The notes beneath the pieces were generated by a model, which was not told where the DNA came from, searched no databases, and saw only the letters and a list, made by a program, of their open reading frames with translations. The translations under genes and the position numbers were made by a program. 64,000 bases of DNA from Ornithinimicrobium cerasi. Its GTDB lineage: Bacteria > Actinomycetota > Actinomycetes > Actinomycetales > Dermatophilaceae. Shown one piece after another: positions 11,300 to 55,639 of this stretch (positions within the stretch are counted from its first letter, which is position 1; each line of letters begins with the position of its first letter). The stretch spans positions 302,274 to 366,273 of the forward strand of contig NZ_QZMN01000003.1 in the NCBI RefSeq assembly GCF_003702705.1. The letters are read 5' to 3'.

Positions 11300-14200
11300 T
11301 CAGTCGTCCGGGTCCCCGATCGGCGCCGGTCGGGATGTCGGCGCCGGCGTCCCGGCGGTCCGGAAGACGAAGCGTCGCACCGCCTCGGCGGCCGGGCGGA
11401 GCGACCCGGCCGTCCACGTCGACCACGTCCGCAGCTCGACCGGCACCGTACCCGTGAACCACTCCCGGTCCTCCGGCGGCCAGGCCCTGACGAGCGTCTC
11501 GAGCGTCACCCCAGGCTCCGCGCCGGCGATCTGGTCGAGCAGCCGCTCGCCCGTCCGGGGACGCCCGGTCGCGACCGCCAGCATGAGCCTGGCCGCCTCC
11601 AGGTCCTCCTCGTCGACGAGTCCCTTGAGCAGCCGGTACGTGTTGAGATAACGCTTGAGCGCCCTCGGTGACCGCGCCAGCATCGGTGCCAGCGCGGCGA
11701 TCGACGTCGCCTCGCCCTCCAGGAGAGTGACCGGGGCAGGTGGGCTGGTGGCGAGCGGCGCGCCGACCCCCTCGCCCGCACCCGACGCAGACCCACCGGG
11801 GTATGCCGTCCCCTCCCCGTCCGTCGCAGCCTCCGCTGATCCTTGCGTGGCGTCGGGTTCCGGACGGGTGCCCGACGCGGGTCCGGCACCTCCCTCACCA
11901 CGTCCCGTCGCGGCGGCTTGGCCGAGCAGGTGGCGGGCCATCGAGGTGGCGGCCTCGGGCCCGGGGCGGTCGAGCCACACCGGCAGCTGGAAGATCTTCT
12001 CCAGGTAGTTGTCTGCCGTGACCTCGCCCCCCTCGAGCAAGGTCGGGTAGACCGTGGACAGCGACGTCGACACCCAGTGCGCGTCCACCGCGACGACCAC
12101 CACGAAGAGTTCGAACGACAGGAGCATCGAGACCGCCTCGAGCACCCGCACGACGGTCTTCGGGGGGCAGCGGTCCAGGTCGTCGATGTAGAGGACGACC
12201 CGGTTGACCGCGTCCGCGCCCTCCTCCCGACTGGCCTCGGGCGCCTCCAGCAGCCTGCGGTTGTGGCGGGTGACCCCGTCGGAGATGACCCGCAGGTCGC
12301 GGTGCACCGTGCCGATCAGACCGAGCTGGCTGCGGTAGTCGTCGGTGGTGACGCGACCCTCGAGGTACTCGTTGAGGAGTCGACCGACGCTCGCGGGCCG
12401 GGCCTGCTCCCGGGCTGCCTCGAGGTTCGCCTGCGCCTCCTCGAGGAGCTGCTGCGCGGCCGTGACCGACTCGACCCTGGCCGCGTACTGCTGGACCTTC
12501 TCCCGCACCCAGGTAGCCGCTCCGGCTGCGGCGCTGACCAGGGCGGCAATGGGTCCCCACGTCATCGTCCTCACGTCCGTCCAGCGCAGCAGGAGCAGGA
12601 GCACCCCGAGGACGACGGCGAACACGGCACCGACCTTTCCCGAGGTGACGAGGAGCTGCCTGCGGGTCCCCGGGGTGAGCCAGCCCACCTGGCGGAGCTT
12701 CTCGCGGGTGGCGACCACCTCGGTGAGGGTGGTGCTCAGGTCCTTCTCCAGCTTCAGATCGGCGCCGTCGAGGTTCCTCCGCAAGGTTTCGAGGGTGCTC
12801 GTGGACGCGAGCTCGAAGAGACCCTCGGCCCCCTGCCGCTCCGCCTCGGCCAGGGCCTCCGCACGGGTCCGGACCTCGGCCTCCGCGTCGGCAAGTCGCC
12901 GCACGCGCGCCTCCTCCGCAGCCGAGAGTCCGGGCGGCAGCGGCAGCTCGACGTCGCGTGCGGCGCCGTCGACGCTGATCCCGGCGATCAGCTGCTCGAG
13001 CATCCCCGCCCAGACGTCGGCGGAAGCGTAGTGCCAGGCGTTGAACCGCACCTGACGGACGTTGCGCCAGGCCCACAGCTGCGACTGCGTGCGGCCGGAG
13101 GTCCGGGCGGTGCCGGTGATCTCCTCGACCTTGGCGTGCAGCTGCTCCATGAAGAAGCTCTTACCGGAACCCCAGGACCCGAACAGCCCGATCGCCAGCG
13201 GAGGCTGCACGACGTGCGCGCAGACCACGGCGGCGAGGGCCTTCACGGTGGGGGTGATGTCCAGCAGGTCCTCGCCCTGCGGCGTGTCCGCGAGGTAGCC
13301 CGTCAGGCGCAGCTCCGGCTGGCTGTCCACCCGCCACATCCGGACGAGTCCGTCCGCGCAGATCCCGAGCGAGCGACCGTCCGGGCTCAGCGCAACGACC
13401 TGCGGTCCGCCACCCTGGGTGCTGCGCCACCGGCACACCAGAGCCCCGTCCCGCAGCACGGCGACCGACGTGCCCGAGGCGGCGACGACCAGCCCCCCGC
13501 CGCAGGCCAGGTGCTCGATCCGCTCGCCGGGCAGCGCCACCGTGGGCGCGGTGGCCGACCCGTCGGGGGTGAAGGACCCCACAGACCCGGTGTCCGTGCC
13601 GAACCAGCTCGTGGTGAGCTGCTGGGCGATCGCGGTCACGCCCGCGGTGCCCGACCCGCCCGGGTACCACGGCCCGTCGACCCGGGTGAGGTCGACAGCC
13701 CGGACGGTGCCGTCCGGGAGGAGAGCGGTGACCGTCCGTCCCGAGGCGGCGAGCCGCACAGGCTGCGGCCCCGGCGGAGCCAGGACCACCGGGGCGCCGT
13801 CGTCGACGTTGCCCCAGAGGATCTTCCCGTCCTCCCCCTGACCGGGCACCAGCGCCACACCCCCCTCGCCCACAGCGGCCACCGTGCCGTGCGGCCAGCT
13901 CTTCCCGAGCGGGAGCACGGCCTCCTGCGCCGCGTCCCACCGCACCACGCCGCCGTCCGGCCCGTCGGCCAGGATGACCCACAGCGTCCCCCGCCGGGAC
14001 CACCCGAGGGCCGAGACGTCGACGTGCACGGGCGGATCCGTGTCTCCTGGCGGGGACGGTGGGTAGACCCGTTCCGACTCCGTCCCCCGGCCCACGCTCA
14101 CGCGTGCCGGAAAGCCCATGGCCCAGCGCCCGACGCCGCGGTCGGTGCTCGAGGGTCCGCGGAGCGCCAGGTGACGCACCGGGTCCTCCGGGTCCAGGGG

Positions 14201-14749
14201 ACCCTCCACGGACACGGGCAGCAGACCCTCCTGGAGCGCGATGAGCGGAGCCCGGCGGCGCAGGAGGTCGCGCCCGCCCGCGGAGAGGTGGTCGGCCAGC
14301 GACGGACTGACCTCCGCGGCCAGGGCGCCCAGCAGCCCGCTGGCGACCGACTCCTCGGCCACGTCGTCGTCCAGGAGGCACCATGCCACCACGGCGACCC
14401 GGCCGAAGACCAGCCCCTCGGACCGCAGCAGCGAACGTGCCTCCGCCAACCAGTCCTGCGCCGGCTGCCGCGGGCCGTCCTCCGGCCACGCGGGGTCACG
14501 CCGTGGCCAGGTGCGGGCGTAGTCGCGGCGGTGCCGGTCCAGGACGCCGTCGACCAGGGTCGTCACCAGCACGAGGCCCGGACCTGCGTCCCGCACCGCA
14601 CCGGCCACCGTCCCGGTGACGGTCCCGGCGCCGGTGACGGCAACCTCCACGGCGACGGACCCGCTCCCGCTGACGACGGGCACGTCATACCCCCGCGCGG
14701 GATCGGCCCCGACCGACCCTGGCCCCGCCTCCCGATCAGGTCCAGCCAC
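11300..14749 (-). CDS. Beta-propeller/KAP-family P-loop NTPase with membrane helices
   Basis: A 1149-residue protein from the GTG at 14749. Residues about 1-230 form a hydrolase-like or adaptor region I do not recognise. Residues about 235-480 contain repeated WD40/propeller-like strands (VDVSALGWSRRGTLWVILAD, VVALSPDGRSLGICADGLVR). A KAP NTPase follows: Walker A GLFGSWGSGKSF near residue 525, two membrane-type helices around 697-755 interrupting the domain, Walker B VVLYIDDLDRCPP near 850, then NYLEKIFQLPVWLDRPG and SPRALKRYLNTYRLL, both typical of KAP. KAP ATPases sit at the inner membrane and often belong to conflict or defence systems. It is transcribed divergently from a lipase-like gene and a Het-C-like gene, with a shared palindrome between. 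The acidic/Gly-rich linker near residues 955-1010 is low complexity. Confidence 0.82.
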   Translation of the reverse strand: MAGPDREAGPGSVGADPARGYDVPVVSGSGSVAVEVAVTGAGTVTGTVAGAVRDAGPGLVLVTTLVDGVLDRHRRDYARTWPRRDPAWPEDGPRQPAQDWLAEARSLLRSEGLVFGRVAVVAWCLLDDDVAEESVASGLLGALAAEVSPSLADHLSAGGRDLLRRRAPLIALQEGLLPVSVEGPLDPEDPVRHLALRGPSSTDRGVGRWAMGFPARVSVGRGTESERVYPPSPPGDTDPPVHVDVSALGWSRRGTLWVILADGPDGGVVRWDAAQEAVLPLGKSWPHGTVAAVGEGGVALVPGQGEDGKILWGNVDDGAPVVLAPPGPQPVRLAASGRTVTALLPDGTVRAVDLTRVDGPWYPGGSGTAGVTAIAQQLTTSWFGTDTGSVGSFTPDGSATAPTVALPGERIEHLACGGGLVVAASGTSVAVLRDGALVCRWRSTQGGGPQVVALSPDGRSLGICADGLVRMWRVDSQPELRLTGYLADTPQGEDLLDITPTVKALAAVVCAHVVQPPLAIGLFGSWGSGKSFFMEQLHAKVEEITGTARTSGRTQSQLWAWRNVRQVRFNAWHYASADVWAGMLEQLIAGISVDGAARDVELPLPPGLSAAEEARVRRLADAEAEVRTRAEALAEAERQGAEGLFELASTSTLETLRRNLDGADLKLEKDLSTTLTEVVATREKLRQVGWLTPGTRRQLLVTSGKVGAVFAVVLGVLLLLLRWTDVRTMTWGPIAALVSAAAGAATWVREKVQQYAARVESVTAAQQLLEEAQANLEAAREQARPASVGRLLNEYLEGRVTTDDYRSQLGLIGTVHRDLRVISDGVTRHNRRLLEAPEASREEGADAVNRVVLYIDDLDRCPPKTVVRVLEAVSMLLSFELFVVVVAVDAHWVSTSLSTVYPTLLEGGEVTADNYLEKIFQLPVWLDRPGPEAATSMARHLLGQAAATGRGEGGAGPASGTRPEPDATQGSAEAATDGEGTAYPGGSASGAGEGVGAPLATSPPAPVTLLEGEATSIAALAPMLARSPRALKRYLNTYRLLKGLVDEEDLEAARLMLAVATGRPRTGERLLDQIAGAEPGVTLETLVRAWPPEDREWFTGTVPVELRTWSTWTAGSLRPAAEAVRRFVFRTAGTPAPTSRPAPIGDPDD

Positions 14750-14783
14750 GCCCGCAGCGTCCCGCCGCCTGGCCGGTTCGTCA

Positions 14784-14801
14784 ATAGGTACAACTACCTA
14801 T
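14784..14801. promoter_or_regulatory. AT-rich palindrome ATAGGTA-caac-TACCTAT between KAP NTPase and hydrolase genes
   Basis: A perfect inverted repeat with 7-base arms and a 4-base centre lies 35 bases before the KAP start codon and 66 bases before the hydrolase start. The surrounding DNA is very GC-rich, so an 18-base stretch of this composition stands out. Its position fits an operator or core promoter shared by both arms of the divergent locus. No dedicated DNA-binding protein is encoded in the locus, so the regulator is unknown. Confidence 0.5.
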
Positions 14802-14866
14802 CCCCACGGAGCACGCCGGGCTGCTAGACCAAGCAGGACCGCGACCCGACGGCTCAGGGGAGAGAC

Positions 14867-16507
14867 ATGGACGAGCAGAGCACCCGACCGCTGATCCTGG
14901 TGCGCGGCTTCGGCGGCCTGGACATCGGCTCCGAGCAGGCCAACGCCTACCAGGGGTTCAACGAGGGGACGGTCTACCCGGGGCGGCGGGGCGACAACTA
15001 CATCTACGAGGGCTTCCTGCTGCGGGCCCTGAAGTCGACGGACTACCCCTACGCCGACGCCACCAACGTCGTCGGCTACTACTCCACCCCCGTCTCCTCG
15101 CCCGGGGGAGACCTCGGCGGCTGGACGGCCGAGGACACCGAGGGGACCGTGGTCATCGACGCGCAGGTGGCCCGTCGGGTGCTGCGGGAGGCGGCCAAGG
15201 GGACGCTGTGGGTCTACCGCTTCTACGACCTGTCGCCCCGGTCCCTGCGCACCTACGGCGAGGGGCTGGTGCGCCTCGTCAAGCTCATCCGCAAGGCGGT
15301 GGAGTCGCGTCAGGTTGGGAGCTTCGACGGCGTCGACCTGGTGTGCCACAGCATGGGCGGCCTGGTGATGCGCGAGGCGCTCCTGGCCATGCACGAGCAG
15401 CAGGAGGGGTCGGCCGCCGACCTGGTGCACCGCGTCGTCACGCTGGGGACCCCGCACCGGGGCATCGCCTTCCAGCGGCTGCCCCGCTGGCTCGTGGACT
15501 CCCTGCCGGGGGTGAGCGGCGGCTCCGACGAGCTGGAGTCGTTCTCCCCGCGGTCGACGCGGTTCCTGGAGCTGGAGAAGGCGTTCCCGCTGGACCGGAT
15601 CCTCACCGTCGTGGGCACCAACTACCGCAGCTACTCCGTCGGGCCGGCGAGCGTGCTCAACCGGCTCTCCACGCTCCTCGACGAGGGCAACCTGGCCACC
15701 AACCGCAGCGACGGGCTCGTGAAGCACTCCTCGGCCCAGCTGCCCGGTGCGCCCCGCACCTTCGTCCACAAGAGCCACGGCGGCAGCGACTCGGTCGTCA
15801 ACTCCCGCGAGACCTACGAGATCGCCATGCGGTTCCTGCACGGGACGCACAAGGTCAGCCTGTGGATGGAGCAGGCCGAGATCACGCGGGGCAAGGACTG
15901 GTTCGGGGACAGCGAGTTCTACTTCGGCGTCAGCATCAAGCCGCGCTACGTCGACTTCGAGCTGTTCCACCAGAGCGCGGAGGCGGAGAACTGCTACGGC
16001 CCGTTCGCCAGGGCCGACCTCAGCGACGGTCCACCCGACCTGGACACCGAGCTGCGCCGTCCGCTCGCCGACAAGGGAGACCGGACGACCGGCTGGGCGG
16101 GGCCGGACCGGCTCATCTGGGAGGGCTGGATCGACGGGCGGATCCGGCCGGGGCAGGACGCCCAGGGCATGGTCTTCCGGCTCGACGTCTACGTCGGCGA
16201 GCGGGACACCCGCGGCATCGGCTTCTCGGACAACGTCATCTTCCGCAAGCAGTACTACGTGCAGGTCTTCCCGGGCACCCACGCCGAGCTGTTCCTGCAC
16301 ACCGGTGAGCAGTACCTCAGCGAGCGTGACCCGAAGGACGCCGCCGCGCTGCGGGAGCTCGCGGCCGCCGACGCCCACCTGGGGGTCAAGGCGACGGTGC
16401 AGCGGCTGGAGGAGATCAGGTCGCGCCCCGGCTGGTTCCTCGACGTCGAGGGCACCGGCTTCTCGGCCCGGCTGCGGGTGGCCATCGCCAAGAACCGCGA
16501 GCACTGA
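14867..16507 (+). CDS. PGAP1-like alpha/beta hydrolase (predicted lipase) with C-terminal beta-rich domain
   Basis: A 546-residue protein. The N-terminal 310 residues form an alpha/beta hydrolase: nucleophile Ser162 in LVCHSMGGLVMRE, the flanking TLGTPHRGIAFQRLP typical of lipases and PGAP1-type esterases, and a likely catalytic His304 in KSHGGSDS. There is no signal peptide. From about residue 325 a second domain begins (VSLWMEQAEITRGKDWFGDS), rich in beta strands, resembling a stretch of the next gene. The protein should cleave an ester bond, plausibly in membrane lipids. It begins 117 bases from the divergent KAP NTPase, and the Het-C-like gene starts 4 bases after its stop, so it is co-transcribed with it. 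The ATG at 14867 has a GGGGAGAG site just upstream. Confidence 0.82.
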   Translation: MDEQSTRPLILVRGFGGLDIGSEQANAYQGFNEGTVYPGRRGDNYIYEGFLLRALKSTDYPYADATNVVGYYSTPVSSPGGDLGGWTAEDTEGTVVIDAQVARRVLREAAKGTLWVYRFYDLSPRSLRTYGEGLVRLVKLIRKAVESRQVGSFDGVDLVCHSMGGLVMREALLAMHEQQEGSAADLVHRVVTLGTPHRGIAFQRLPRWLVDSLPGVSGGSDELESFSPRSTRFLELEKAFPLDRILTVVGTNYRSYSVGPASVLNRLSTLLDEGNLATNRSDGLVKHSSAQLPGAPRTFVHKSHGGSDSVVNSRETYEIAMRFLHGTHKVSLWMEQAEITRGKDWFGDSEFYFGVSIKPRYVDFELFHQSAEAENCYGPFARADLSDGPPDLDTELRRPLADKGDRTTGWAGPDRLIWEGWIDGRIRPGQDAQGMVFRLDVYVGERDTRGIGFSDNVIFRKQYYVQVFPGTHAELFLHTGEQYLSERDPKDAAALRELAAADAHLGVKATVQRLEEIRSRPGWFLDVEGTGFSARLRVAIAKNREH

Positions 16508-16511
16508 GCCC

Positions 16512-19500
16512 ATGCCGCTCCCGCTGCCGCTGTCGGTGCGCGCGGTCCTCACCTCCGCCCGGACGGTGCTGCGGCACGTCGTCGCGGTCCAGCTCCCGCT
16601 GCACGTCGCGGCCGTGTCCCTGCTGCGTTTCGGCGGGGAAGACCCCCTCCTGGAGGCCGACGACCTCGAGAACTGGCACCACCGTCGGCTCTCCTTCGAG
16701 GCCGCCCGGGCCTCCGGCTGGGCCGAGGACGCGGCCATGGAGATGTCGTGGCACACCGACTACGTCGACAGCTACCTCTACAACCCGCTGTGGTGGTTCC
16801 AGGGAGGTCTGGACCGGGTCAAGACGGCCCTGTCGCTGGCGCCCACCCTGACCAAGATCCACTTCGACGACCTCACCGACGTCCGCCAGATCGAGGTGAT
16901 GTGGCACCGCTACCGGGGCGGGCTGCTGGCCGGCGTGCTCTGGGCGGCCGACCTGCCGCTGCCGCTGCCGGCCCGGGTCGCGGCCGCCCGGCACGTCGTC
17001 GGGGTGGCGCTGCACCCGGTGCAGGACTTCTACTCCCACTCCTCCTGGGTGGACGACCCGTCGCGGCGCGGCCTGCTGTGGACCGACCCCCACGAGCTGG
17101 CCGGGGACCACCCGATCTACACCGGCAACTACGAGCTGTCCCCGGTGACCGGCATCGCCCACCACGGCCGGTTCGCCCCGGAGTGCACCGTGCTGCGCAT
17201 GGACCCCGGCCTGCTCGAGGTCCTCTGCCATCCGGTGTCCCCGCTGACCAAGAACGCCGTCTGCGACATGTACCGCGCGTGCCAGGACGGCGTGGCGCTC
17301 GGCTCCACCACCGTGTATGGCGTGCCCGTCCCCGCCGGGCTCGTCCACCTCGCCCCGCCCGGCATCGCGCTCGACTCCCGGTGGGTCGCGCCGATCGGGG
17401 CCCAGCAGCGCGGCTTCCCCCAGGCGGACGCGGAGATGCTGTTCACGACGGCGCTGCGGCTGGCCGGGCGGCAGAGCGCCGAGATCCTCTGCGGGCTGAC
17501 CCGGGCGCTGGTCGCGCCCGATCTGGCGACCTTCTGGCAGCACGTCCGGTCCGACCCGGCCGGGGACGAGGAGGGGTGGCAGGCGGAGTTCGAGGACTTC
17601 CACCGCCAGGGTGTGCGCTTCCTCGGCACCGGCGAGTACCCGCCGAAGCCTGCGCCCGTCGCGGAGGAGTGGTACGTCCGCCTGCGCCTGGTCACGGCGG
17701 ACGAGACGGGTGCCGGCACCGACGCCGACATCTACGCCTCGGTCGACAGCGGGCCCGGGGAGCACCTGCTCGACAACATGCCCGACGCCGGTCCGCTGCT
17801 GGCCTACGACGACTTCGAGAAGGGCGACGACCAGGTGTTCCACATCGGTCCGTTCGACTCCTTCCCCTCCGAGCTGGTGCTGCGCAACGCCGACGCCGAC
17901 CTGGGCGACGTGCTGGAGGCCCTCGGCCGGACGTTCGTCAACGCGGTGAGGGACGCCGTCTACGCGATCGGGGACCTGCTGCTCAGCCTGATCGGGGGTC
18001 ACGCCGACCACGTGGCGACCGAGCACCGGGTGTGGACGCCGGCGCAGCTGGCCGGCCTGACCGGCTCCGCCAGCCCGTTCAGCGTGGACCTGAACGGCGG
18101 CGGCGAGGGTCACTACCGCGTGCACGGGACGATCCGCCGCTCCCGCCGTCACCAGCTCGGCCACGTCCACGTCTCGGACTGGGAGGTGCGGCTGGACGCC
18201 CTGGAGGCGGTCGAGGAGTCGGACTGGGACCGCGGCTCTGACTCCGACGAGCCGTTCCTCATCGCGATGCTGGTCAACCAGGCGTCCCGGACCGCCGACC
18301 ACCACCTCTTCGGGCCCTGGTCCGACGTGGACACCGGCGAGCGCCGGGGGCTGGGCCGCACGTTCCGGGCCACCGGCGTGCCGGACCGCCACGGTCACCT
18401 CACCCTCGCGCTGCAGCTGTGGGAGAGCGACGACGAGGGTGGTCCCGGTCGCAGGAACGCCTACCAGGAGTTCACCAAGGAGTTCCAGGAGCGGACGGCG
18501 CCCGCGCGCGACGGCTTCCTGGACACCCTCGGCCGCTCGCTCGGCTCGGCCTGGACCGTGGAACGCCTCGAGGCGCACACCTACGGGTTCACGCCCGACG
18601 GCACGGTCCGCTACGGGCGCTCCCTCGAGGTCCGACCCGGGACGATCGAGGGTGGTGAGACCCGGCGCTGGCGGCTCGGGGTCAACCACGAGTCGGTCTC
18701 CTGGACCGGCCGGGTCTGTCCCCGCGACGAGCTGCGCAGGCTCGACACCGACGGGGACGGGGCGGGGGAGATCCTGGTCAGCAGCCCCTGGGGGGTGGGG
18801 CTGCTCGGCGACGACGGCAACGCCGGCCTGACGAGCCGCTCGATGGCACCGAACGGGACCGCCTTCGGGGCGTGGACCGTCGACACCTCGGCCGACCGGT
18901 TCGGGCCGAGCGGCCGCTTCGACCCCACGGTGCCGGTGGACCAGGTGTGGGTGCGCGGCCCGGCGGGGCTCAGCGTGGTGACGGGCGACGGGCCGGGGTT
19001 CGCCGAGCTGGCGCACCTGCCGGAGGGGTCCGAGCGGGCGGAGCTGGTGCCCGGTCGCGAGCTGCGCGCCGGTCCGGGCGGGTGGCTCGTCGAGGCACAG
19101 CGTGACGACGCGGTGTTCCTCACCGACGACGCGCTGTCGGTGCTCGGTGCCGACGGCGGCCGCGTGCTGCTGCGCGCCCGTGCCGTCGCCGGCGAGGACC
19201 TCGGTGGCTGGACCCTCGATCCCCGCGCGGACCGGGTGGTGGCCGCGGGCGACCTGGACGGCGACGGGCTGGACGAGCTGGTCCTGCACGGCGCGCAGGG
19301 GCTGGCCATGGTCAAGGTCGTCGACGGGGTGCTCCGGGTGGTCGCCCGGCTGCACCCGGGGCAGGACCTCGGCCTGGGTGACCCGCTCGACCCCGAGCTC
19401 GTGCGCGTGGGCCCGGCGGCCGACCTGCGTGCCTCGGGCCGGCTGGGCGTCCTCGTCACGACGCCCGCGGTCCACGGCTTCCTCGAGCTGGAGGACGGAC

Positions 19501-19910
19501 GGTGGCGCAGCACCGCCTACGCCAACCACGACACGAGGGCCGGCGACTGGGTGGTGGACGTCCGGGCCGACCGGTTCGGGCCCGTCGGACCGCTGCGCCG
19601 CTCGGACCACGACCTCTGGCTGAGCTCGCCCACCACGATCGGCGTCCTCGTCGCGGACGGCTACCACCTGACCGCTGAGTGCTGCCACCCCGTCGGCGAG
19701 ATGTTCGACGACTGGACGCCGACCCCGGACACCCGCTACGGCACGGGCCGTGCGGTCCAGGGGCGGGAGGGTCTTGTCCTGGCGGCCGACGACTGGGGGG
19801 TCGTGCTGATCGAGGCTCGCGGCGACCGACCGCACGTCGTCGCCCGCGTCGCGCAGGCCGACCGGGCCGGCGGCTGGGTGGTCGACACCAGGGTCAACGC
19901 GTTCCAGTGA
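16512..19910 (+). CDS. Giant Het-C / PLAT-like / FG-GAP repeat protein, predicted membrane-lipid effector
   Basis: An 1132-residue protein. Residues about 40-300 resemble the Het-C domain, which shares the helical zinc phospholipase C fold: WHTDYVDSYLYNPLWW and, diagnostically, His168-PVQDFYS-His176-SSW. Residues about 384-465 look like a PLAT/LH2 lipid-binding domain (YVRLRLVTADETGAGTDADI, then FEKGDDQVFHIGPFD). A beta-rich segment around 545-640 resembles the C-terminal domain of the preceding hydrolase. The last 400 residues contain FG-GAP-like propeller repeats with Asp-rich loops (DTDGDGAGEILVSS, GDLDGDGLDELVLHG), which may bind calcium. The combination suggests an enzyme that attacks phospholipids at membranes. 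No signal peptide is seen. Start chosen is the ATG 4 bases after the hydrolase stop. The 3' end overlaps the convergent CDP-alcohol transferase by 17 bases. Confidence 0.72.
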   Translation: MPLPLPLSVRAVLTSARTVLRHVVAVQLPLHVAAVSLLRFGGEDPLLEADDLENWHHRRLSFEAARASGWAEDAAMEMSWHTDYVDSYLYNPLWWFQGGLDRVKTALSLAPTLTKIHFDDLTDVRQIEVMWHRYRGGLLAGVLWAADLPLPLPARVAAARHVVGVALHPVQDFYSHSSWVDDPSRRGLLWTDPHELAGDHPIYTGNYELSPVTGIAHHGRFAPECTVLRMDPGLLEVLCHPVSPLTKNAVCDMYRACQDGVALGSTTVYGVPVPAGLVHLAPPGIALDSRWVAPIGAQQRGFPQADAEMLFTTALRLAGRQSAEILCGLTRALVAPDLATFWQHVRSDPAGDEEGWQAEFEDFHRQGVRFLGTGEYPPKPAPVAEEWYVRLRLVTADETGAGTDADIYASVDSGPGEHLLDNMPDAGPLLAYDDFEKGDDQVFHIGPFDSFPSELVLRNADADLGDVLEALGRTFVNAVRDAVYAIGDLLLSLIGGHADHVATEHRVWTPAQLAGLTGSASPFSVDLNGGGEGHYRVHGTIRRSRRHQLGHVHVSDWEVRLDALEAVEESDWDRGSDSDEPFLIAMLVNQASRTADHHLFGPWSDVDTGERRGLGRTFRATGVPDRHGHLTLALQLWESDDEGGPGRRNAYQEFTKEFQERTAPARDGFLDTLGRSLGSAWTVERLEAHTYGFTPDGTVRYGRSLEVRPGTIEGGETRRWRLGVNHESVSWTGRVCPRDELRRLDTDGDGAGEILVSSPWGVGLLGDDGNAGLTSRSMAPNGTAFGAWTVDTSADRFGPSGRFDPTVPVDQVWVRGPAGLSVVTGDGPGFAELAHLPEGSERAELVPGRELRAGPGGWLVEAQRDDAVFLTDDALSVLGADGGRVLLRARAVAGEDLGGWTLDPRADRVVAAGDLDGDGLDELVLHGAQGLAMVKVVDGVLRVVARLHPGQDLGLGDPLDPELVRVGPAADLRASGRLGVLVTTPAVHGFLELEDGRWRSTAYANHDTRAGDWVVDVRADRFGPVGPLRRSDHDLWLSSPTTIGVLVADGYHLTAECCHPVGEMFDDWTPTPDTRYGTGRAVQGREGLVLAADDWGVVLIEARGDRPHVVARVAQADRAGGWVVDTRVNAFQ

Positions 19911-20625
19911 GGGCGGGGCGGCGGCTCAGCGTGAGGTGCAGGCTGAGCCCGGTGTAGTAGACGACGTAGGCGAGCGAGAGGGCGACCAGCCACGGCTCCG
20001 GCGACGGGGAGCGGGCGAGGATGACGGCATACAGGACCAGCCATCCGGTGGTCAGCGCCATGGTGAGCCGCCAGGCCGTCGCCGTCCGCGACGGGTAGAC
20101 GTAGCGGACCGGCACGAAGACCAGCACCGCGAGGACGAGCAGCACCGCCGTGACGACGGGGGCGCCCGCGTCCAGCACGACCAGGTAGAACGCCGCGACG
20201 TTCCAGTAGCTGGGGAACCCGAGGAAGAAGTGATCCTCGGTCTTGGCGTCGGTGCGGCAGAACTGGACGCAGGACGCGAGCACCGGCACCGCGGCCACGA
20301 CGCCGCCGAGCCAGCCGTCCGGCAGGTAGCCCGCGCTCCACAGCAGCACCATCGGCGCGAACGCGTAGGTGATGAAGTCGACGATGTTGTCGAGCAGCGC
20401 GCCGTCGAAGCCGGGCAGCACCTCCTTGACGCGGAAGCGGCGGGCGAGGAAGCCGTCGGTGCCGTCGACGACCATCGCCACGAGGAAGAGCCACAGCACC
20501 GCGGTGACCTCGCCGGCGTAGGACAGGTGGACCATGAGCAGCGCCAGCACCGACCCGAGAGCCGTGTAGGCGTGCACCGCGGCCGCCGCCAGCCGCTGCG
20601 CGGTGCTCGGTCGCGGGGGGCTCAT
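19894..20625 (-). CDS. pcs: CDP-alcohol phosphatidyltransferase, phosphatidylcholine synthase-like
   Basis: A 243-residue integral membrane enzyme with about seven hydrophobic segments. The CDP-alcohol phosphotransferase active site reads DGTDGFLARRFRVKEVLPGF followed by DGALLDNIVD. The gap between the DG-AR half and the G-D-D half is longer than the usual eight residues, which is how phosphatidylcholine synthase (CDP-diacylglycerol plus choline) differs from phosphatidylglycerolphosphate synthase; FITYAFAPMVLL also fits that family. The enzyme would make phosphatidylcholine in one step. It overlaps the tail of the Het-C-like gene and is divergent from the ATP-grasp pair (75 bases between starts). 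A link to either neighbour is not shown. The choline specificity is my inference from motif spacing. Confidence 0.7.
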   Translation of the reverse strand: MSPPRPSTAQRLAAAAVHAYTALGSVLALLMVHLSYAGEVTAVLWLFLVAMVVDGTDGFLARRFRVKEVLPGFDGALLDNIVDFITYAFAPMVLLWSAGYLPDGWLGGVVAAVPVLASCVQFCRTDAKTEDHFFLGFPSYWNVAAFYLVVLDAGAPVVTAVLLVLAVLVFVPVRYVYPSRTATAWRLTMALTTGWLVLYAVILARSPSPEPWLVALSLAYVVYYTGLSLHLTLSRRPALTGTR

Positions 20626-20699: not shown

Positions 20700-21929
20700 A
20701 TGGTCACCGCCGCCTTCGTCGCCCCGTTCCTCCTCGAGGCGACCCGGAGGTTCGTGCTGTCGGCCGCGCGCGTCCCGGGCGTCCGCCTCGCCGTCGTCAC
20801 CGCCACCCCCGCGGACCGTCTCGACCCCGAGCTGCGCGAGGCGATCGCCGGCCACTGGCAGGTCGCCGACGCCCTGGACCCCCAGCAGGTGGCCGACGCG
20901 GTCCGCGGTCTGGGCGCGCGGCTGGGGCCGGTCGAGCGGCTCGTCGGGATCCTCGAGCAGCTGCAGGTGCCGCTCGCCCAGGTCCGGGACGCGCTCGGCA
21001 TACCGGGCATGGACGAGGAGACAGCCCGCAACGTGCGCGAGAAGGCGCGGATGAAGACCGTGCTCGGCCGGGCCGGCGTGCCCTGCGCGCGCCACCGGCT
21101 CGTCACCCGCACCGAGGAGGCGATCGACTTCCTGGAGCTGGTGGGGCTGCCCGTCGTCGCCAAGCCGCCGGACGGGGCGGGGGCCGTCGCGACCTTCCGC
21201 CTCGACACCTGGGCGGACGTGGACGCCTGGCTGCAGATGGCGCGCGGCGAGGCGGGGGAGGCCTGGCTGCTGGAGGAGTTCCTCACCGGCCGCGAGCACA
21301 CCTTCGACTCGGTGACGATCGACGGCGAGACGGTCTTCTCCTCGGTCGCCGACTACCACCCCACCCCGCTGGAGGTGCTGCGCAACCCGTGGGTGCAGTG
21401 GCAGGTCGTGCTGCCGCACGCGGTCGACGGGCCGGAGTGCCGCGAGATCCACCGCGTCGGACCCGCCGCCCTCGCCGCGCTCGGGGTGCGGACGAGCATC
21501 TCGCACATGGAGTGGTTCGCCCGGCCCGACGGCACCGTCGCCATCTCCGAGGTCGGCGCCCGGCCGCCCGGCGCGCAGCTGGCCTCGATGATCGGCCTCG
21601 CCCACGACGTCGACTTCTTCGACCTCTGGGCGCGGCTGATGATCCTCGAGGAGTTCACCCGGCCCGAACGCTCCTGGGCGTGCGGCACGGCATACCTGCG
21701 GGGTCTGGGGCGCGGACGCGTCCGCGCCGTGCACGGCCTCGAGGAGGTATGGCGTGAGCTGGGGGACCTGGTCGTGGACTCACGCCTGCCACGGCCGGGG
21801 GCACCCTCGTCGACGGGCTACGAGGGGGAGGGGTTCATCACCGTGCGCCACCGCGACACCGACGCCGTCCGCGAGGCCCTCGACCTCATCGTCTCCCGGG
21901 TCCGCGTCGAGCTGGTCGAGGAGGCGTGA
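20700..21929 (+). CDS. ATP-grasp ligase (first of tandem pair)
   Basis: A 409-residue ATP-grasp protein. The N-terminal Rossmann-like lobe covers about residues 1-110. The nucleotide-binding lobes are visible at LVGLPVVAKPPDGAGAVATF and AWLLEEFLTGREHTFDSVTI. The metal-binding end is at AISEVGARPPGAQLASMIGL. ATP-grasp enzymes activate a carboxylate as an acyl-phosphate and join it to an amine or thiol. The sequence is of the carbamoyl-phosphate-synthase-like/carnosine-synthase-like branch, so amino-acid or dipeptide ligation is plausible but the substrate is unknown. Its neighbour is a paralogue on the same strand whose start overlaps or abuts this stop, so the two are probably translated together. 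Confidence 0.85.
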   Translation: MVTAAFVAPFLLEATRRFVLSAARVPGVRLAVVTATPADRLDPELREAIAGHWQVADALDPQQVADAVRGLGARLGPVERLVGILEQLQVPLAQVRDALGIPGMDEETARNVREKARMKTVLGRAGVPCARHRLVTRTEEAIDFLELVGLPVVAKPPDGAGAVATFRLDTWADVDAWLQMARGEAGEAWLLEEFLTGREHTFDSVTIDGETVFSSVADYHPTPLEVLRNPWVQWQVVLPHAVDGPECREIHRVGPAALAALGVRTSISHMEWFARPDGTVAISEVGARPPGAQLASMIGLAHDVDFFDLWARLMILEEFTRPERSWACGTAYLRGLGRGRVRAVHGLEEVWRELGDLVVDSRLPRPGAPSSTGYEGEGFITVRHRDTDAVREALDLIVSRVRVELVEEA

Positions 21930-21934
21930 GGGGG

Positions 21935-23146
21935 ATGAACGTCGTCCTGCTGTCCCCGGGCTTCCCGCTCGACGTCTCATCCTTCACGCGGGCCCTGGCC
22001 CGCACCGGCGCACGGGTCATCGGCATCGGCGACCAGCCGGTCGGCGCGCTGCCGGCGACGGTGCGCGACCACCTCGTCCACTACGAGCACGTGCCGCTCG
22101 CCGACACCGCGGCGGTCCTGGCCGCGCTCCGGGGGCTGGCGCGCCACGTGCGCATCGACCAGGTCGAGTGTCTCTGGGAGCCCTACGTCGTGCTCGCCGC
22201 CACCATCCGGGAGCACCTCGACCTGCCGGGCATGCGGGTGGAGGAGGCGACGTGGTTCCGTGACAAGGAGGTGATGAAGCGGGTGCTCGACGCCGCCGGG
22301 GTCCGCACGCCGCGGCACGCCGGCGCGACCACGGTCGCCGAGGTGTGGGAGGCGGCGGAGCAGGTCGGCTACCCGCTCATCGTCAAGCCGGTCGCCGGCG
22401 CGGGCTCGGCCGACACCTACCGTGTGGACACGCCGGCCCGGCTGGCCGAGGTGCAGCAGATGATCCAGCACGTGCCGCGGGTCAGCGTGGAGGAGTTCGT
22501 CGAGGGGGAGGAGTTCACCTACGACACGGTCTGCGGGGACGGGGAGGTGCTCTTCGAGAACGTCAGCTGGTACCAGCCCCGGCCGCTGGAGCAGCGCAGC
22601 CACGAGTGGGTCAGCCCGATGACGATCGCGCTGCGGGACAAGGACGACCCCGCTCTGGCCGGTGGTCTGGACATGGGGCGTCGCGTCCTCACGGCGCTCG
22701 GCTTCACCTCGGGGTTCACGCACATGGAGTGGTACCGCACCGCGGACGGCGAGGTGGTCTTCGGCGAGATCGGGGCCCGGCCGCCCGGCGCGCGGACGGT
22801 CGACGTCATGAACTACGCGACCGACGGGGACCTCTTCGACACCTGGGCGCTCGCGGTGACGACGGGGCAGGCGCCGCCGCTCACGCACCGGTTCAACGCG
22901 GCCAGCATGTTCAAGCGGGCGCAGGGGTCGGGGCGGATCACCCGGGTCGAGGGCCTTGAGCGGCTGCTGCGCGAGGAGGGCGAGCACGTCTGCGTCGTCG
23001 ACCTGCTGCCCGTCGGCACCCCCCGCCGCGACTGGCGGGCGACCCTGCTCTCGGACGGCATGGTCATCGCCCGCCACCCCGAGCTGCCCGAGCTGATGCG
23101 GGTGCTGGGGCGCTTCGCGACCGAGCTGGAGATGTTCGCGGAGTAG
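21935..23146 (+). CDS. ATP-grasp ligase (second of tandem pair)
   Basis: A 403-residue ATP-grasp protein, paralogous to the preceding one. Key segments are YPLIVKPVAGAGSADTYRV, VSVEEFVEGEEFTYDTV, HMEWYRTADGEVVFGEIGAR and PPGARTVDVMNYA. The start was placed at the ATG at 21935 because the GAGGAGG at 21918-21924 lies about ten bases upstream. A GTG at 21926, overlapping the previous stop, is the alternative and would add three residues. Two consecutive ATP-grasp ligases suggest stepwise ligation in one pathway or a heterodimer. No dedicated amino-acid-metabolism gene is next to them. Downstream begins a decayed region. Confidence 0.85.
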   Translation: MNVVLLSPGFPLDVSSFTRALARTGARVIGIGDQPVGALPATVRDHLVHYEHVPLADTAAVLAALRGLARHVRIDQVECLWEPYVVLAATIREHLDLPGMRVEEATWFRDKEVMKRVLDAAGVRTPRHAGATTVAEVWEAAEQVGYPLIVKPVAGAGSADTYRVDTPARLAEVQQMIQHVPRVSVEEFVEGEEFTYDTVCGDGEVLFENVSWYQPRPLEQRSHEWVSPMTIALRDKDDPALAGGLDMGRRVLTALGFTSGFTHMEWYRTADGEVVFGEIGARPPGARTVDVMNYATDGDLFDTWALAVTTGQAPPLTHRFNAASMFKRAQGSGRITRVEGLERLLREEGEHVCVVDLLPVGTPRRDWRATLLSDGMVIARHPELPELMRVLGRFATELEMFAE

Positions 23147-51386: not shown

Positions 51387-51743
51387 GCCTGGTGGCGCCT
51401 TGTCTAGCGCTATCTCGTCATACTTCGCCGCTGAACCACGTGCGCGGTCTACCGGATAGCGCTCTCGATTGACTGCCAACTTGTCGAGGGCTACCTGTGT
51501 CAGATCAACGTCAAGAGAGTCCGCCAGGAGGACAAGGTAGGTGTAGACGTCCGCGAGCTCTGACGTGAGCTTCTCACGAGGTGGCAACTCATCCGGACCG
51601 AGCCACTGGAACAGAGCCAGGAGTTCGCCGGCTTCGCCGCCTAGCGCCATGGCTAGGTTCTTGGCTGTATGGAACTGTCCCCAGTCCCGTTCTCGAACGA
51701 ACTGTCTAAGGGCTTCTTGCACCTGGTCTGGGCTATCCGTCAC
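51381..51743 (-). CDS. MazG-like nucleotide pyrophosphohydrolase
   Basis: A 120-residue all-alpha NTP pyrophosphohydrolase of the MazG/RS21-C6 (dCTPase) group. The metal-binding helices are visible: NLAMALGGEAGELLALFQWL and ELADVYTYLVLLADSLDVDL, with the E-x-x-E and E-x-x-D pairs. It hydrolyses (d)NTPs to monophosphates, and MazG-like enzymes in islands often act as house-cleaning or anti-phage nucleotidases. It uses a GTG start and overlaps the end of the upstream helicase-like gene by 11 bases. Lower GC and codon use set it apart from genes to the left. Its last few codons may come from the disrupted NERD gene. Confidence 0.88.
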   Translation of the reverse strand: MTDSPDQVQEALRQFVRERDWGQFHTAKNLAMALGGEAGELLALFQWLGPDELPPREKLTSELADVYTYLVLLADSLDVDLTQVALDKLAVNRERYPVDRARGSAAKYDEIALDKAPPGR

Positions 51744-53664
51744 TCTCAGCCTCCTTCGTGATCAGTTCGCGCAACAGTTCGCGAACGTCGGGGTCGACTG
51801 CGTAGATGATCACCCCCCTCATGGCTCGCGTAAGGAGGACCCGGTACTGATTCCGGATGTAATCCACCTTACTGGCGTTCTTGCTGGCGGCCGTCACTAG
51901 CTTGCGGTACTTGGAGGCGGACACGTCAGGCTCCAGTTTCTCGCCTGTCGCGTCGAGACGGAGATCCGGTCCAATGATTACCGCGCAGTAATCGAACTCG
52001 AATCCTTGGGCGGTGAACACAGAGCCGACCTGGCCCTGCCCCGAGGGGGTCAACGCCCAGAGATCTTTGCCGGGGAGATCCGCGACTGGTTGCTGAAGGT
52101 TCCAGGGCATGCTCCACTCGCCGATGGCTACCTCTCTGGGCAGATCGGCGACGTCTGGGCTCGTTGGCTTCTGCCACGCCCAGGTGAAGCCTGCAAGGAT
52201 CCGCTTGGACTCGGAGTCTTTCGAAAGGAGGCTCTCCTCCATCTCCTCTGGAGTCTCAACAAGCTCTACTGTGAAGTTGTCGTCGCCACTCCAGGTCTGC
52301 GGTGTTCCGGCCACGAGTGAATCCACCCACTCTTCGTACCTCTTCGAACCTCCAGAGCGGTGTTGTTCCGTGAGCTCCAGTTCCACGAAGTCTGACCCGA
52401 CGAGCGTTGCCAGGTCACGCGCTTGGACGCTGGTGAGGTGGTCGCTGGCGGTCGTCGCCTGCCCCTCGTCGATCATCAGGACCACGATCGAGGCTGACTT
52501 CTTCAGTTCGAAGAGCTGAGTGATGCCTTTCGACTCGAGATGCTCCTGAACATGACGCCGATTCGCGTGCCCCGTTCGGACCGTGAACTCAGAAATGCGC
52601 TGTGCCTCATCGACGACGAGCAGGTCCAAGGGGGATGACCAGCGATCTGTATTCCAGTAAGAACGGGCGGATGTCACCATTCCGGCGATCGCCCGAGTGG
52701 CAGCGGTCTGCCTGGCGATGCGGGTGAGCGTCTGACGCAGTGCTGTCGAGTTCGTCGCAAACGCGACCTGAGACTGGGCGGCGGCAAGACGGCCCATGAG
52801 GTGGAGACAGATCCACGTCTTCCCACTCCCTGGCGCCCCCTTCACCACTACAATTGCTGAGTTCTTTGCGGCCGTTGGATCCTGTACCTCCCGCACGATG
52901 TCGAGAATCCGATCGACGACCGAGTTCTGTTCGTCAGTGAGCGGGAAAGCTTCGGGGTCTTGGAAGGTCTTGGCGGCGACCTTGAGGATGTTGGCGCTCT
53001 GCAGGAACTTGGCACGAAGCAGGTCGCGTGCCACGTCCAGCCCGTTGCTGGGGTCCATCGTCTCCTGGAGGAACGTCTTGAAGCGCAGCCGACCGGTCGC
53101 GTCCCCAGAAAAGGTGTTTGACGCTTCGTCAGCGCCAGCTGTGCGAAGGGTCTGGATAGCTTCCTCGTTGGCGTTGTGAAGGAAAGCGCAGGCCTCCACC
53201 CTCGCAAGGTCTGCCTCAAACCCCTCCGTATAGTTTGCGATGAATGCCGCGTAGTCGGCGGCCTGACGGTACGGGTGACGGGAGGTTGAATATTTCGCCT
53301 GGAAGTCGGTCACCTTCTGCGCCTCTGCGTTCCAGGTTGCCTGACTCCATTGCTTGAGCTCCACCACGAGCACTACTGACTGGCTGTTCTTCGTTCCCGT
53401 GACGACGACGTCGGCTCGACCGTTCCCAGCTTGGTACGGGTTGTACTCAAGGAGCACGCCGGCCTTGGCCAAACCGGCCTCCATGAGTAGTTCGGCTATC
53501 GTCGGGAGACTGTTGATCCAGGAGCCTTCCTCGCCGGTCAGCGCGGGAGCTGCTCCCTCTAGGGCTGCCTTCTGCTTGAGCTTGGCCAAGAGCGTCGGTA
53601 GCGCTCCTGGGCGCGACTGCTCGAAGAAGTCTCGGACCGTGCCCTCGTACCTCGCCTTTGACAT
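51733..53664 (-). CDS. DUF2075-like nuclease-helicase protein A (foreign composition)
   Basis: A 643-residue protein with a predicted PD-(D/E)xK nuclease-like N-terminus: Glu73 in LLEYNPYQ, Asp85 in NGRADVVVTG, and Glu102/Lys104 in VVELKQWSQATW. A DNA/RNA helicase-type ATPase follows: Walker A VVVKGAPGSGKTWICLHL near residue 278, Walker B LLVVDEAQRISE, a Q/R-finger region (ELTEQHRSGGSKRYEEWVDS) and VGSVFTAQGFEFDYCAVIIG. This matches DUF2075/Schlafen-like helicases of phage-defence islands. It is followed, overlapping, by the MazG-like gene, so the two may be a unit. The base composition is clearly lower in GC than the host core and than its paralogue to the right. Confidence 0.85.
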   Translation of the reverse strand: MSKARYEGTVRDFFEQSRPGALPTLLAKLKQKAALEGAAPALTGEEGSWINSLPTIAELLMEAGLAKAGVLLEYNPYQAGNGRADVVVTGTKNSQSVVLVVELKQWSQATWNAEAQKVTDFQAKYSTSRHPYRQAADYAAFIANYTEGFEADLARVEACAFLHNANEEAIQTLRTAGADEASNTFSGDATGRLRFKTFLQETMDPSNGLDVARDLLRAKFLQSANILKVAAKTFQDPEAFPLTDEQNSVVDRILDIVREVQDPTAAKNSAIVVVKGAPGSGKTWICLHLMGRLAAAQSQVAFATNSTALRQTLTRIARQTAATRAIAGMVTSARSYWNTDRWSSPLDLLVVDEAQRISEFTVRTGHANRRHVQEHLESKGITQLFELKKSASIVVLMIDEGQATTASDHLTSVQARDLATLVGSDFVELELTEQHRSGGSKRYEEWVDSLVAGTPQTWSGDDNFTVELVETPEEMEESLLSKDSESKRILAGFTWAWQKPTSPDVADLPREVAIGEWSMPWNLQQPVADLPGKDLWALTPSGQGQVGSVFTAQGFEFDYCAVIIGPDLRLDATGEKLEPDVSASKYRKLVTAASKNASKVDYIRNQYRVLLTRAMRGVIIYAVDPDVRELLRELITKEAESDG

Positions 53665-53764
53665 GCGAGTGCCTCGTGTGCTGCTGTCACGGGGGAGGCG
53701 TGTCCTCTTGCGGAAGCCTGTCGGTCCGTTGTTGTCGGATGGGGTTGATGCGCGCTCTTGTTGT

Positions 53765-55639
53765 TCAGCCTCTAACTAGGTGTCGAAGAAATCCCCTCGT
53801 CTGCGGGTCTGTGGAGTAGATCCAGGCGCTCTGCATGCCCCGCGTCAGCAGCACCTTGTAGACGTTGCGCACCAGCCGGTCGAAGTCGCGGTCCGACACC
53901 TTCGTGCGGTTTCGCAACACCGGGTCCCGGTTGCCCTCACGCACTGCGCGCCACCGCCCGTCGCGCCACACGAGATCGGGCCCGATGATGATCCCGGCGT
54001 GGTCGTACTCGAAGCCCTGCGCCGTGTAGATGCACCCCACCTGCCCGAACCCGGCAGGGTCGGTCGCCCAGAGCGCCGACGCCGGCGCACCGCCCACGGA
54101 CCGGTCTCCTTTGAGGTTCCACGGCCGCGACCAGTCGCCGATCCGCACATCCGGCACCAGCGTCCCGTCCGGCTCGGGGTCCGACCACGGCCAGCAGTAG
54201 CCGGCCGCCATGCGCGCCGTATAGCCGTCCGCCTGCCGGAGCGCCAGCACGTGCTCGAGCTCCTCGGGGGAGTCCACGACGTCCAGCTGGAACGCTCGGT
54301 CGCCCTCCCACACGAACGGCCCGCCGGGCGCGAGCCCCAGCAGCCGCTCGACCCACTCGACATACAGCGCCGACCCGCCGCACCTGAACTGGTCGTCGAG
54401 GTCGATCTCGTGCACGTCCATGCCCAGCGACTCGGCATACTCGGTGATCGCCTGGACCGTCCCCATCTCCCCGGGCCGCACGACCTGGTTCTGGTCCAGC
54501 AGGAACACCGGCACGCGCGCCGCGCTCAGCAGCTCGTCCAGCTGCGGCCGGCCGGTCCGGTGCTCCTTGCGGGTGAACCGCGACTCCGACGTCTCCCGGA
54601 TCCGGTGCGCCTCGTCGAGGATGAGGCACTCCAGCCCGTTGGGCTCGGCGGCCATGAAGCTGTTGAAGTAGCTGAACATCTTGCGCACGCGCGGCGCCCG
54701 CGCGGCCGCGACCTTGCGCAGGGTTTGGGTGAACGACTGCGAGCCGGTCGCGTGCATGACGGCACGTCCCTGCCGCGACAGCTCGCCCATCAGCGACAGA
54801 GCGATGACGCTCTTGCCGCTCCCCGGACCGCCGCTGACGACGACAGCTGTCTTGGTGCTGCCCCGCCGCGCCTTCTCGACCGCGTGCAGCACCAGCTCGT
54901 AGGCGTCGCGCTGCCCGTCGAGCAGGACGAACTGCTCGCGGCGCTGCACCTCGTCCGCCGCCAGGGCCAGCAGCTGCTTGGAGGGGGCGATGCGACTGGC
55001 CAGCAGCCGGTCGGCATACCCCGCACCCGACACCCCGGACGCGAAGCGGCTCTTCAGGTAGTCGAGGAACTCACCCCTGTCCTGCCCGCTGAACATCCGC
55101 GCGGGCCTTGCGGGATCGGGGGAGGCCATGTCCCGCAGGTCCGCGACCCCCAGGTTGGTCGCGTTGTGTAGGTATGCCGTGCCGGCGAGCTCGTGCTCGT
55201 CCTCGGTCATCGTGACGACGAAGTCGGTCAGGTAGTCGCAGTAGCCGCGAACCTGCTCCAGCGGGTGCAGCACCGGGTGGTTGCCGTAACCGTCGATCCG
55301 CACGAGCACGTCGCTGTCCTCATAGCGCTCGGCCACACTCCACTGCTTGAGCTCGACCACGAGGTATGACGGGCGCCCCGTCTGCGGGTGCTGCCCGGCG
55401 AGGACCACGTCGGCGCGCTTGCTGGTGAGGGGCAGCTGGTACTCGACCAGCATCTCGACGTCGCCGAGCCCGGCGTCGATGAGGTCGGCGCGCAGGCGGG
55501 GGAGACTGCGCTCCCACGAGCGGCGCTCGGACGGGGAGGCCGACCGGCCTGTGGTGATGGCCATCTGCTCCGCGATGTGCTGGGCGAGCTGTGCCTCGGC
55601 AACCGACAGCCCTTGCACGGACGACCGAAGCAGGAACAC
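53765..55639 (-). CDS. DUF2075-like nuclease-helicase protein B (host-like composition)
   Basis: A 624-residue paralogue of the previous gene, starting at GTG 55639. It has the same architecture: Glu66 in LVEYQLPL, Asp77 in SKRADVVLAG, Glu96/Lys98 in LVVELKQWS, then Walker A VVSGGPGSGKSVIALSLMGE near residue 270, Walker B CLILDEAHRIRE, and CIYTAQGFEYDHAGIIIGPD. The overall identity with protein A appears modest, so these are anciently diverged rather than a recent duplication. Its high GC and TATGNC context match the chromosome, unlike protein A. No MazG partner follows it. The role is inferred to be antiviral. Confidence 0.85.
   Translation of the reverse strand: MFLLRSSVQGLSVAEAQLAQHIAEQMAITTGRSASPSERRSWERSLPRLRADLIDAGLGDVEMLVEYQLPLTSKRADVVLAGQHPQTGRPSYLVVELKQWSVAERYEDSDVLVRIDGYGNHPVLHPLEQVRGYCDYLTDFVVTMTEDEHELAGTAYLHNATNLGVADLRDMASPDPARPARMFSGQDRGEFLDYLKSRFASGVSGAGYADRLLASRIAPSKQLLALAADEVQRREQFVLLDGQRDAYELVLHAVEKARRGSTKTAVVVSGGPGSGKSVIALSLMGELSRQGRAVMHATGSQSFTQTLRKVAAARAPRVRKMFSYFNSFMAAEPNGLECLILDEAHRIRETSESRFTRKEHRTGRPQLDELLSAARVPVFLLDQNQVVRPGEMGTVQAITEYAESLGMDVHEIDLDDQFRCGGSALYVEWVERLLGLAPGGPFVWEGDRAFQLDVVDSPEELEHVLALRQADGYTARMAAGYCWPWSDPEPDGTLVPDVRIGDWSRPWNLKGDRSVGGAPASALWATDPAGFGQVGCIYTAQGFEYDHAGIIIGPDLVWRDGRWRAVREGNRDPVLRNRTKVSDRDFDRLVRNVYKVLLTRGMQSAWIYSTDPQTRGFLRHLVRG

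Follow-up and report, generated by a model that had tools for sequence, protein, structure and literature searches.

A possible lipid-degrading effector operon beside a divergent KAP NTPase gene in Ornithinimicrobium cerasi

The actinobacterium Ornithinimicrobium cerasi (Dermatophilaceae) carries three neighbouring genes, arranged around one divergent control region, that encode a KAP-family P-loop NTPase, a lipase-type alpha/beta-hydrolase and a large protein with Het-C-like, PLAT-like and FG-GAP-like parts. Here, we describe these genes in a stretch of 64,000 nucleotides (nt) of assembly GCF_003702705.1 (contig NZ_QZMN01000003.1, positions 302,274 to 366,273 of the forward strand), hereafter called the window, with positions counted from its first letter. 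Our tentative reading, which we regard as possible rather than probable, is that the genes for the hydrolase and the Het-C-like protein make up an operon of two lipid-degrading effectors, which the KAP NTPase may control, a one-off variant of the conflict systems dependent on nucleoside triphosphates (NTPs). Among the genomes examined, the trio is a single observation.

Gene layout and domain families at the locus

All three predicted open reading frames (ORFs) were confirmed at the coordinates, and around the shared divergent region, given in a first-pass annotation of the sequence. The KAP gene (11300..14749) lies on the minus strand, and the hydrolase gene (14867..16507; 546 amino acids, aa) and the Het-C-like gene (16512..19910; 1132 aa) lie on the plus strand. 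Genes were called with a simple caller using ORF length and guanine-plus-cytosine (GC) content by codon position, and all three were read as genuine genes because their GC at third codon positions (0.91 for the KAP gene, 0.98 for the hydrolase gene and 0.96 for the third gene) compares with 0.96-0.98 in four flanking genes. The third ORF opens with the ATG at 16512, 4 nt past the hydrolase stop codon, and judging from this gap the two plus-strand genes are very likely co-transcribed. The divergent gap between the KAP and hydrolase genes measures 183 nt or 117 nt, depending on whether the former starts at GTG 14683 or at GTG 14749. It contains a perfect 18-nt dyad of 7+4+7 nt, ATAGGTA-CAAC-TACCTAT (14784..14801, no strand), a candidate operator whose 16-nt core has no further copy at up to one mismatch across the 3.83 Mb genome. 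No sigma-70-type promoter was found in a scan of the divergent region.

The hydrolase matches Pfam PGAP1 (25.7 bits, cut-off 24.3) and DUF676 (24.9 bits, cut-off 20.3), in agreement with the PGAP1-like serine hydrolase proposed at first pass, and over the nucleophile region a profile of seven sequences (A2) finds bacterial triacylglycerol lipases among the PDB entries (E 1.2e-7). The predicted nucleophile, S162 in CHSMGG (codon 15350..15352, plus strand), and its candidate partners D282 (15710-15712, plus strand) and H304 (15776-15778, plus strand) are invariant in 12 of 12 aligned sequences (alignment A6) and probably form the catalytic triad. With this predicted Ser-Asp-His triad and a nucleophile elbow, the protein is, by its sequence features, a lipase-type alpha/beta-hydrolase. 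No hydrophobic segment was found in it at the threshold used.

For the third protein, likeness to Het-C was judged from motifs. Zhang et al. 2012 published a motif set for Tox-HET-C (H, [DE], HxD, HxxxDxxxH, Nxx[DE] and [ST]G; PMC3482391) and proposed a kinship of Het-C with zinc phospholipase C and S1-P1 nuclease, based on hits that they called borderline. In an alignment of the window protein with its Salsipaludibacter albus homologue (54% identity) and two relatives, L052 and L053, these elements can be placed at H57, D83, H117-x-D119, H168-D172-H176, the acidic residue of Nxx[DE], the first letter of which differs, and T204-G205. The HxxxDxxxH metal-site motif is HPVQDFYSHSSW (aa 168-179; 17013..17048, plus strand), and residues of the zinc-site motifs are conserved among the Het-C relatives, as the predicted catalytic residues are among the hydrolases; lack of such residues in orthologues had been named at first pass as evidence against the proposal. 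A match to VWA7_N, a zinc phospholipase C-like family, spans this motif and lies at the border of acceptance (27.0 against a cut-off of 27.5 in hmmscan; 29.1, above the cut-off, in a genome search), and Pfam Het-C (PF07217) gave no match up to E 10. The Het-C likeness put forward earlier holds for the motif set and, at the border, for VWA7_N, and does not extend to the Pfam Het-C family itself.

The other two parts of the protein, both named in the first-pass annotation, were found largely by comparison. A PLAT-like domain (17667..17891, plus strand, approximate bounds) is placed by alignment with L052 and L053, both of which match Pfam PLAT above the cut-off as well as VWA7_N, one of them above the cut-off for the latter; an A5 profile match to lipoxygenases (E 7.4e-5) gives indirect support, and the window protein has no direct Pfam PLAT hit. 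The degenerate FG-GAP-like tail (18609..19907, plus strand, approximate bounds) matches Pfam weakly and under the cut-off (E 0.015), and the repeats are strong in the sole full-length relative (2e-23). This type of tail repeat is also found on a subtilase in genome G055; in a side observation, seven FG-GAP stretches like those of the tail were counted in the subtilase at L120:2-2743, which points to the tail as a module common to unrelated enzymes.

Close relatives of this protein are few. Among 396 genomes of the phylum there was one besides the genome of origin, plus two proteins matching only around the metal motif, and among 149 genomes of the family the protein occurred only in its own genome, with one further match to the tail only. 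A coarse scan of genome contigs for Het-C, made with two short peptide patterns, gave at least a single hit, again the S. albus locus, as a lower bound. A sequence search of the PDB with the Het-C part matched no solved enzyme of the zinc phospholipase C class, and nothing useful came from a viral-contig scan for Het-C or from plasmid-record searches for the Het-C part, the FG-GAP tail and L053.

The third member of the set belongs to the KAP family, with 99.8 bits to Pfam KAP_NTPase (PF07693) against a gathering cut-off of 20 (E 2.2e-28). An N-terminal region of about 470 aa without a proven fold precedes the NTPase domain, in which the Walker A motif GSWGSGKSF recorded at first pass (13154..13180, minus strand; aa 502-510 counted from 14683) and the Walker B motif DDLDRC (12167..12184, minus strand; aa 834-839 from 14683) are intact. 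In an alignment of the window protein with four other KAP proteins, G-x-WGSGK was kept and Walker B was identical in 5/5. Membrane helices had also been proposed: between Walker A and B there is one strong hydrophobic segment, a candidate membrane helix (12569..12658, minus strand; peak Kyte-Doolittle value 2.33 over 19 residues), and a second helix is not clear. The propeller that the first-pass annotation gave this protein had to be dropped as an established fact. The sequence of the protein looks by eye like degenerate blades, and profiles do not support a propeller: Pfam WD40 reached only E 0.29, and a WD40 profile built from the Pseudonocardia plasmid protein L106 found no match in the window protein, with 1/20 shuffled copies reaching E 0.047; no WD40 stretch in it rose above noise. 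PADLOC matches include QatA, PDC-S20 and PifA, and a PDB sequence search returned a single match at E 0.5.

Relatives of the three genes and their neighbourhoods

The hydrolase family provides most of the comparative evidence. The genome search matched 33 other genomes of 296, of which the eight at E <=3e-13 were opened and 25 weaker ones left. The 17 loci compared (14 plus L116 and L117 plus L125) comprise five close relatives (L103, L111, L116, L117 and L125) and 12 distant ones; L112, a stretch of some 100 residues interrupted by two stops and without a phmmer match, was left out, and record H2 represents the strain and plasmid already present as H1. In a midpoint-rooted tree of 12 hydrolases, in which L125 was not included, the window protein, L103, L111, L116 and L117 split from seven distant sequences with full support. 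A wider viral-contig scan for the hydrolase gave only L096 and L097 (62 and 103 residues), which were not counted, and a viral-contig scan with the close set and a search of phage records gave nothing useful.

Four of the five close relatives lie near caspases (two loci) or other defence or candidate defence genes (two loci). In L117, the hydrolase gene, whose product is 62% identical to the window protein, stands 88 nt downstream of a caspase gene, and in L116 (69% identical) the hydrolase is separated from a divergent caspase gene by one gene of 126 aa, and TIR and SLATT genes follow at a greater distance. Against the cut-off of 140 of the NCBIfam model 'caspase, EACC1-associated type', the two caspases score 161.5 (L117) and 166.3 (L116). 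The 126-aa protein upstream of the L116 hydrolase (L116:10678-11058) is EACC1-like in its position and central hydrophobic stretch; no Pfam or NCBIfam model matched it at the thresholds used. The hydrolase of L111 is found near LmuA/B/C genes, directly after a TerD-domain gene with a below-cut-off VRR_NUC match, and the one of L103, carried by a Rhodococcus fascians plasmid, precedes a helicase matching the candidate defence model PDC-S28. According to Kaur et al. 2020 (PMC7159879), VMAP systems with a caspase domain always have a neighbouring alpha/beta-hydrolase gene, and a related hydrolase occurs in GAP1-N1 systems. Among titles and the opening parts of abstracts of open-licence papers, we found no experimental test of such an enzyme described.

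The KAP gene also has relatives in defence-type surroundings. Of six plasmid records with matches, five were opened (L106 and L126-L129; H9 was left unopened), and in all five the KAP relative has, by annotation, genes of defence, toxin-antitoxin or restriction type around it: Fic with an antitoxin gene in L106; SIR2 and a deoxyribosyltransferase in L126; DUF4062, macro, DarT and SIR2 in L127; DUF2971 and VapBC in L128; and a RelE/ParE-family toxin, an ImmA/IrrE-family gene and a restriction subunit in L129. In the genomes, the KAP search matched 11 others of 149, of which six were opened; L074 (E 3.7e-4) was dropped after blastp found no KAP relative there. A viral-contig scan for KAP yielded nothing useful. 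The N-terminal parts of the relatives vary, with WD40 in L106, a weak below-cut-off TPR in L072 and a start that looks TIR-like by eye in L127, and these varied N-termini and neighbours fit a switch joined to varied effectors. The protein with the TIR-like start, from a Sinorhizobium plasmid (L127:3615-7109), lies beside the DUF4062 gene; DUF4062 is, according to one report, a TIR-like NADase with a role in defence against phages (PMC13174449). KAP domains are described as able to displace STAND NTPases in such conflict systems (PMC8195603).

The three genes were found together nowhere else among the loci examined. With all three proteins as phmmer queries, a second partner appeared in none of the 17 hydrolase loci, three Het-C-family loci and six KAP loci. 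These counts come from overlapping genome samples, and in five of the 17 hydrolase contexts one flank or both are shorter than 2 kb. Another four KAP loci, on plasmids, were compared by annotation only and showed no partner, and the genome of S. albus, the source of the sole close Het-C relative, had no match to the close hydrolase profile. A conserved three-gene system was rejected on these results: the first-pass annotation had suggested a new conflict system, with rarity of neighbouring homologues named beforehand as evidence against it, and homologues were indeed rarely neighbours in everything examined. What survives of that suggestion is the conflict-type character of the parts, supported by the defence-type neighbours of relatives.

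Known systems and other genes of the window and genome

Among known systems, the VMAP hydrolase-caspase pairs and the EACC1 two-gene systems resemble the locus in that the L116 and L117 hydrolases lie near EACC1-type caspases; the window differs in that a profile search found no caspase in it, neither beside the hydrolase, as in the pairing of Kaur et al. (PMC7159879), nor elsewhere, the partners there being the Het-C-like gene and the KAP NTPase. With the KAP NTPases, among them QatA and PifA of PADLOC, the window protein shares a KAP domain with Walker A and B motifs, between which one hydrophobic segment is clear and a second is not, but its score of 78.4 is far below the NCBIfam QatA cut-off of 600, and Qat membership was rejected on that score; no QatBCD-like gene was recognised among the flanking genes scanned. 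Compared with L106, the window protein has a similarly long region before the KAP domain, and the tblastn alignment starts at query aa 315; L106 differs by its 11 WD40 stretches. The alignable motif elements link the third protein to Het-C, Tox-HET-C and VWA7_N (PMC3482391), from which it differs in the first letter of Nxx[DE], the absent Pfam Het-C match and the added PLAT and FG-GAP parts.

The clostridial alpha-toxin class consists of zinc phospholipases C with a PLAT/C2-like domain. The window protein shares with it the order of a predicted metal-dependent alpha-helical hydrolase followed by PLAT, and differs in length, in its FG-GAP tail and in lacking a sequence match to a solved enzyme of that class.

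Next to the trio, a phosphatidylcholine synthase-like gene (19894..20625, minus strand) is convergent with the third ORF and overlaps it by 17 bp. It matches Pfam CDP-OH_P_transf above the cut-off; its matches to five phosphatidylcholine synthase models of NCBIfam (6e-58 to 2e-38) stay below their cut-offs. The gene is probably not part of the set. Beside it, positions 20700-23146 hold two adjacent ATP-grasp-type genes with a 4-nt overlap, possibly a peptide or amide ligase pair. Further along, a stretch of lower GC (0.62-0.70) contains a pair of adjacent genes (51733-55639) that encode Schlafen group 3 helicase domains (Pfam 3e-68 and 5e-84). Elsewhere in the same genome, on contig C63, a caspase-DEAD helicase fusion (L119:7561-10569) is the one Pfam caspase match.

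Alternative explanations and biological meaning

In the reading that we tentatively favour, the hydrolase and the Het-C-like protein would together degrade the membrane lipids of their own cell, the hydrolase as a serine lipase or esterase and the Het-C-like protein as a metal-dependent phospholipase C-like enzyme docking on the membrane via its PLAT domain. The KAP NTPase, whose gene would share the control region of both enzymes, would most likely serve as a membrane-linked sensor or switch that releases both enzymes upon detection of an invader. The locus would then combine known parts of conflict systems in a one-off arrangement and would not be a conserved system. What places the KAP gene with the other two is the layout of the locus.

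Several observations weigh against this reading, beginning with the missing partners at all other loci examined. None of the three proteins has a known activity. Neighbouring genes in the window that match a family appear to be metabolic (an ALO oxidase, the synthase and the ATP-grasp genes among others), and a local profile of three caspases found no caspase in the window. Among the hydrolase relatives, the close L125 (by eye) and the distant L104 (by annotation) lie among ordinary-looking genes, and no caspase was found in the stretches examined around the 12 distant relatives. The EACC1 section of Kaur et al. 2020 (PMC7159879) names no hydrolase partner, so the link between EACC1-type caspases and the hydrolase comes from two loci, L116 and L117. 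The signal-peptide-like starts seen by eye in L052 and L053, the canonical Het-C/PLAT relatives, suggest secretion and not self-targeting. Finally, a reversed control pattern of the dyad core also gave one genome match, which makes the dyad notable for its position and not for its rarity.

Nearly as probable as a KAP-controlled effector operon is a chance neighbourhood, in which the hydrolase and Het-C-like genes form an operon on their own, the KAP gene is an unrelated divergent solo gene, and each family travels alone from one bacterium to another. The partnerless loci of all three families fit such an arrangement, as do the differing N-terminal parts and neighbours of the KAP relatives and the hydrolase relatives on the Rhodococcus plasmid and in L125, which occur without the other two genes; it accounts less readily for the 117-183 nt divergent spacing with a dyad that has no other copy in the genome and for the several KAP and hydrolase relatives among defence genes. 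FG-GAP repeats are typical of exported proteins. Together with the secretion-type starts of L052 and L053 and the adjacent phosphatidylcholine synthase-like gene, this would fit enzymes that are exported to degrade lipids and so make phosphate or lipids available, or membrane turnover tied to the convergent synthase gene. We consider this rather improbable. The synthase matched 11 other genomes of the genus, nine of which were opened over 20 kb each, and all nine were without hydrolase, Het-C or KAP genes, on which ground a link of the trio via the synthase gene was rejected; the hydrolase, moreover, shows no hydrophobic segment at the threshold used. The same nine relatives served for an empty-site comparison, and none (0/9) keeps both flanks.

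Least probable, and in our view quite unlikely, is an exported antibacterial or other toxin, with the Het-C-PLAT-FG-GAP protein acting on competing cells as proposed for Tox-HET-C. Tox-HET-C is listed among the polymorphic toxins (PMC3482391) and its motif elements can be placed in the third protein, but beside the third gene, where no search was aimed at them, genes for a secretion system, for immunity or for a polymorphic-toxin leader were not noticed.

If the three proteins act together, a KAP switch would be joined to two lipid-directed enzymes, and a Het-C-type domain, a kind known above all from fungal incompatibility, would have a place in a bacterial pathway of cell suicide. In its most far-reaching form, this would be an immune module in which a KAP NTPase, and not a caspase, controls a conflict-type lipase and a Het-C-PLAT-FG-GAP phospholipase C-like enzyme, a two-enzyme membrane-suicide arm having its Het-C-type domain in common with fungal incompatibility; we think this unlikely. 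Should the three not act together, the hydrolase family still offers a testable lead, as an actinobacterial lipase-type enzyme found twice near EACC1-type caspases and twice near other defence-type genes.

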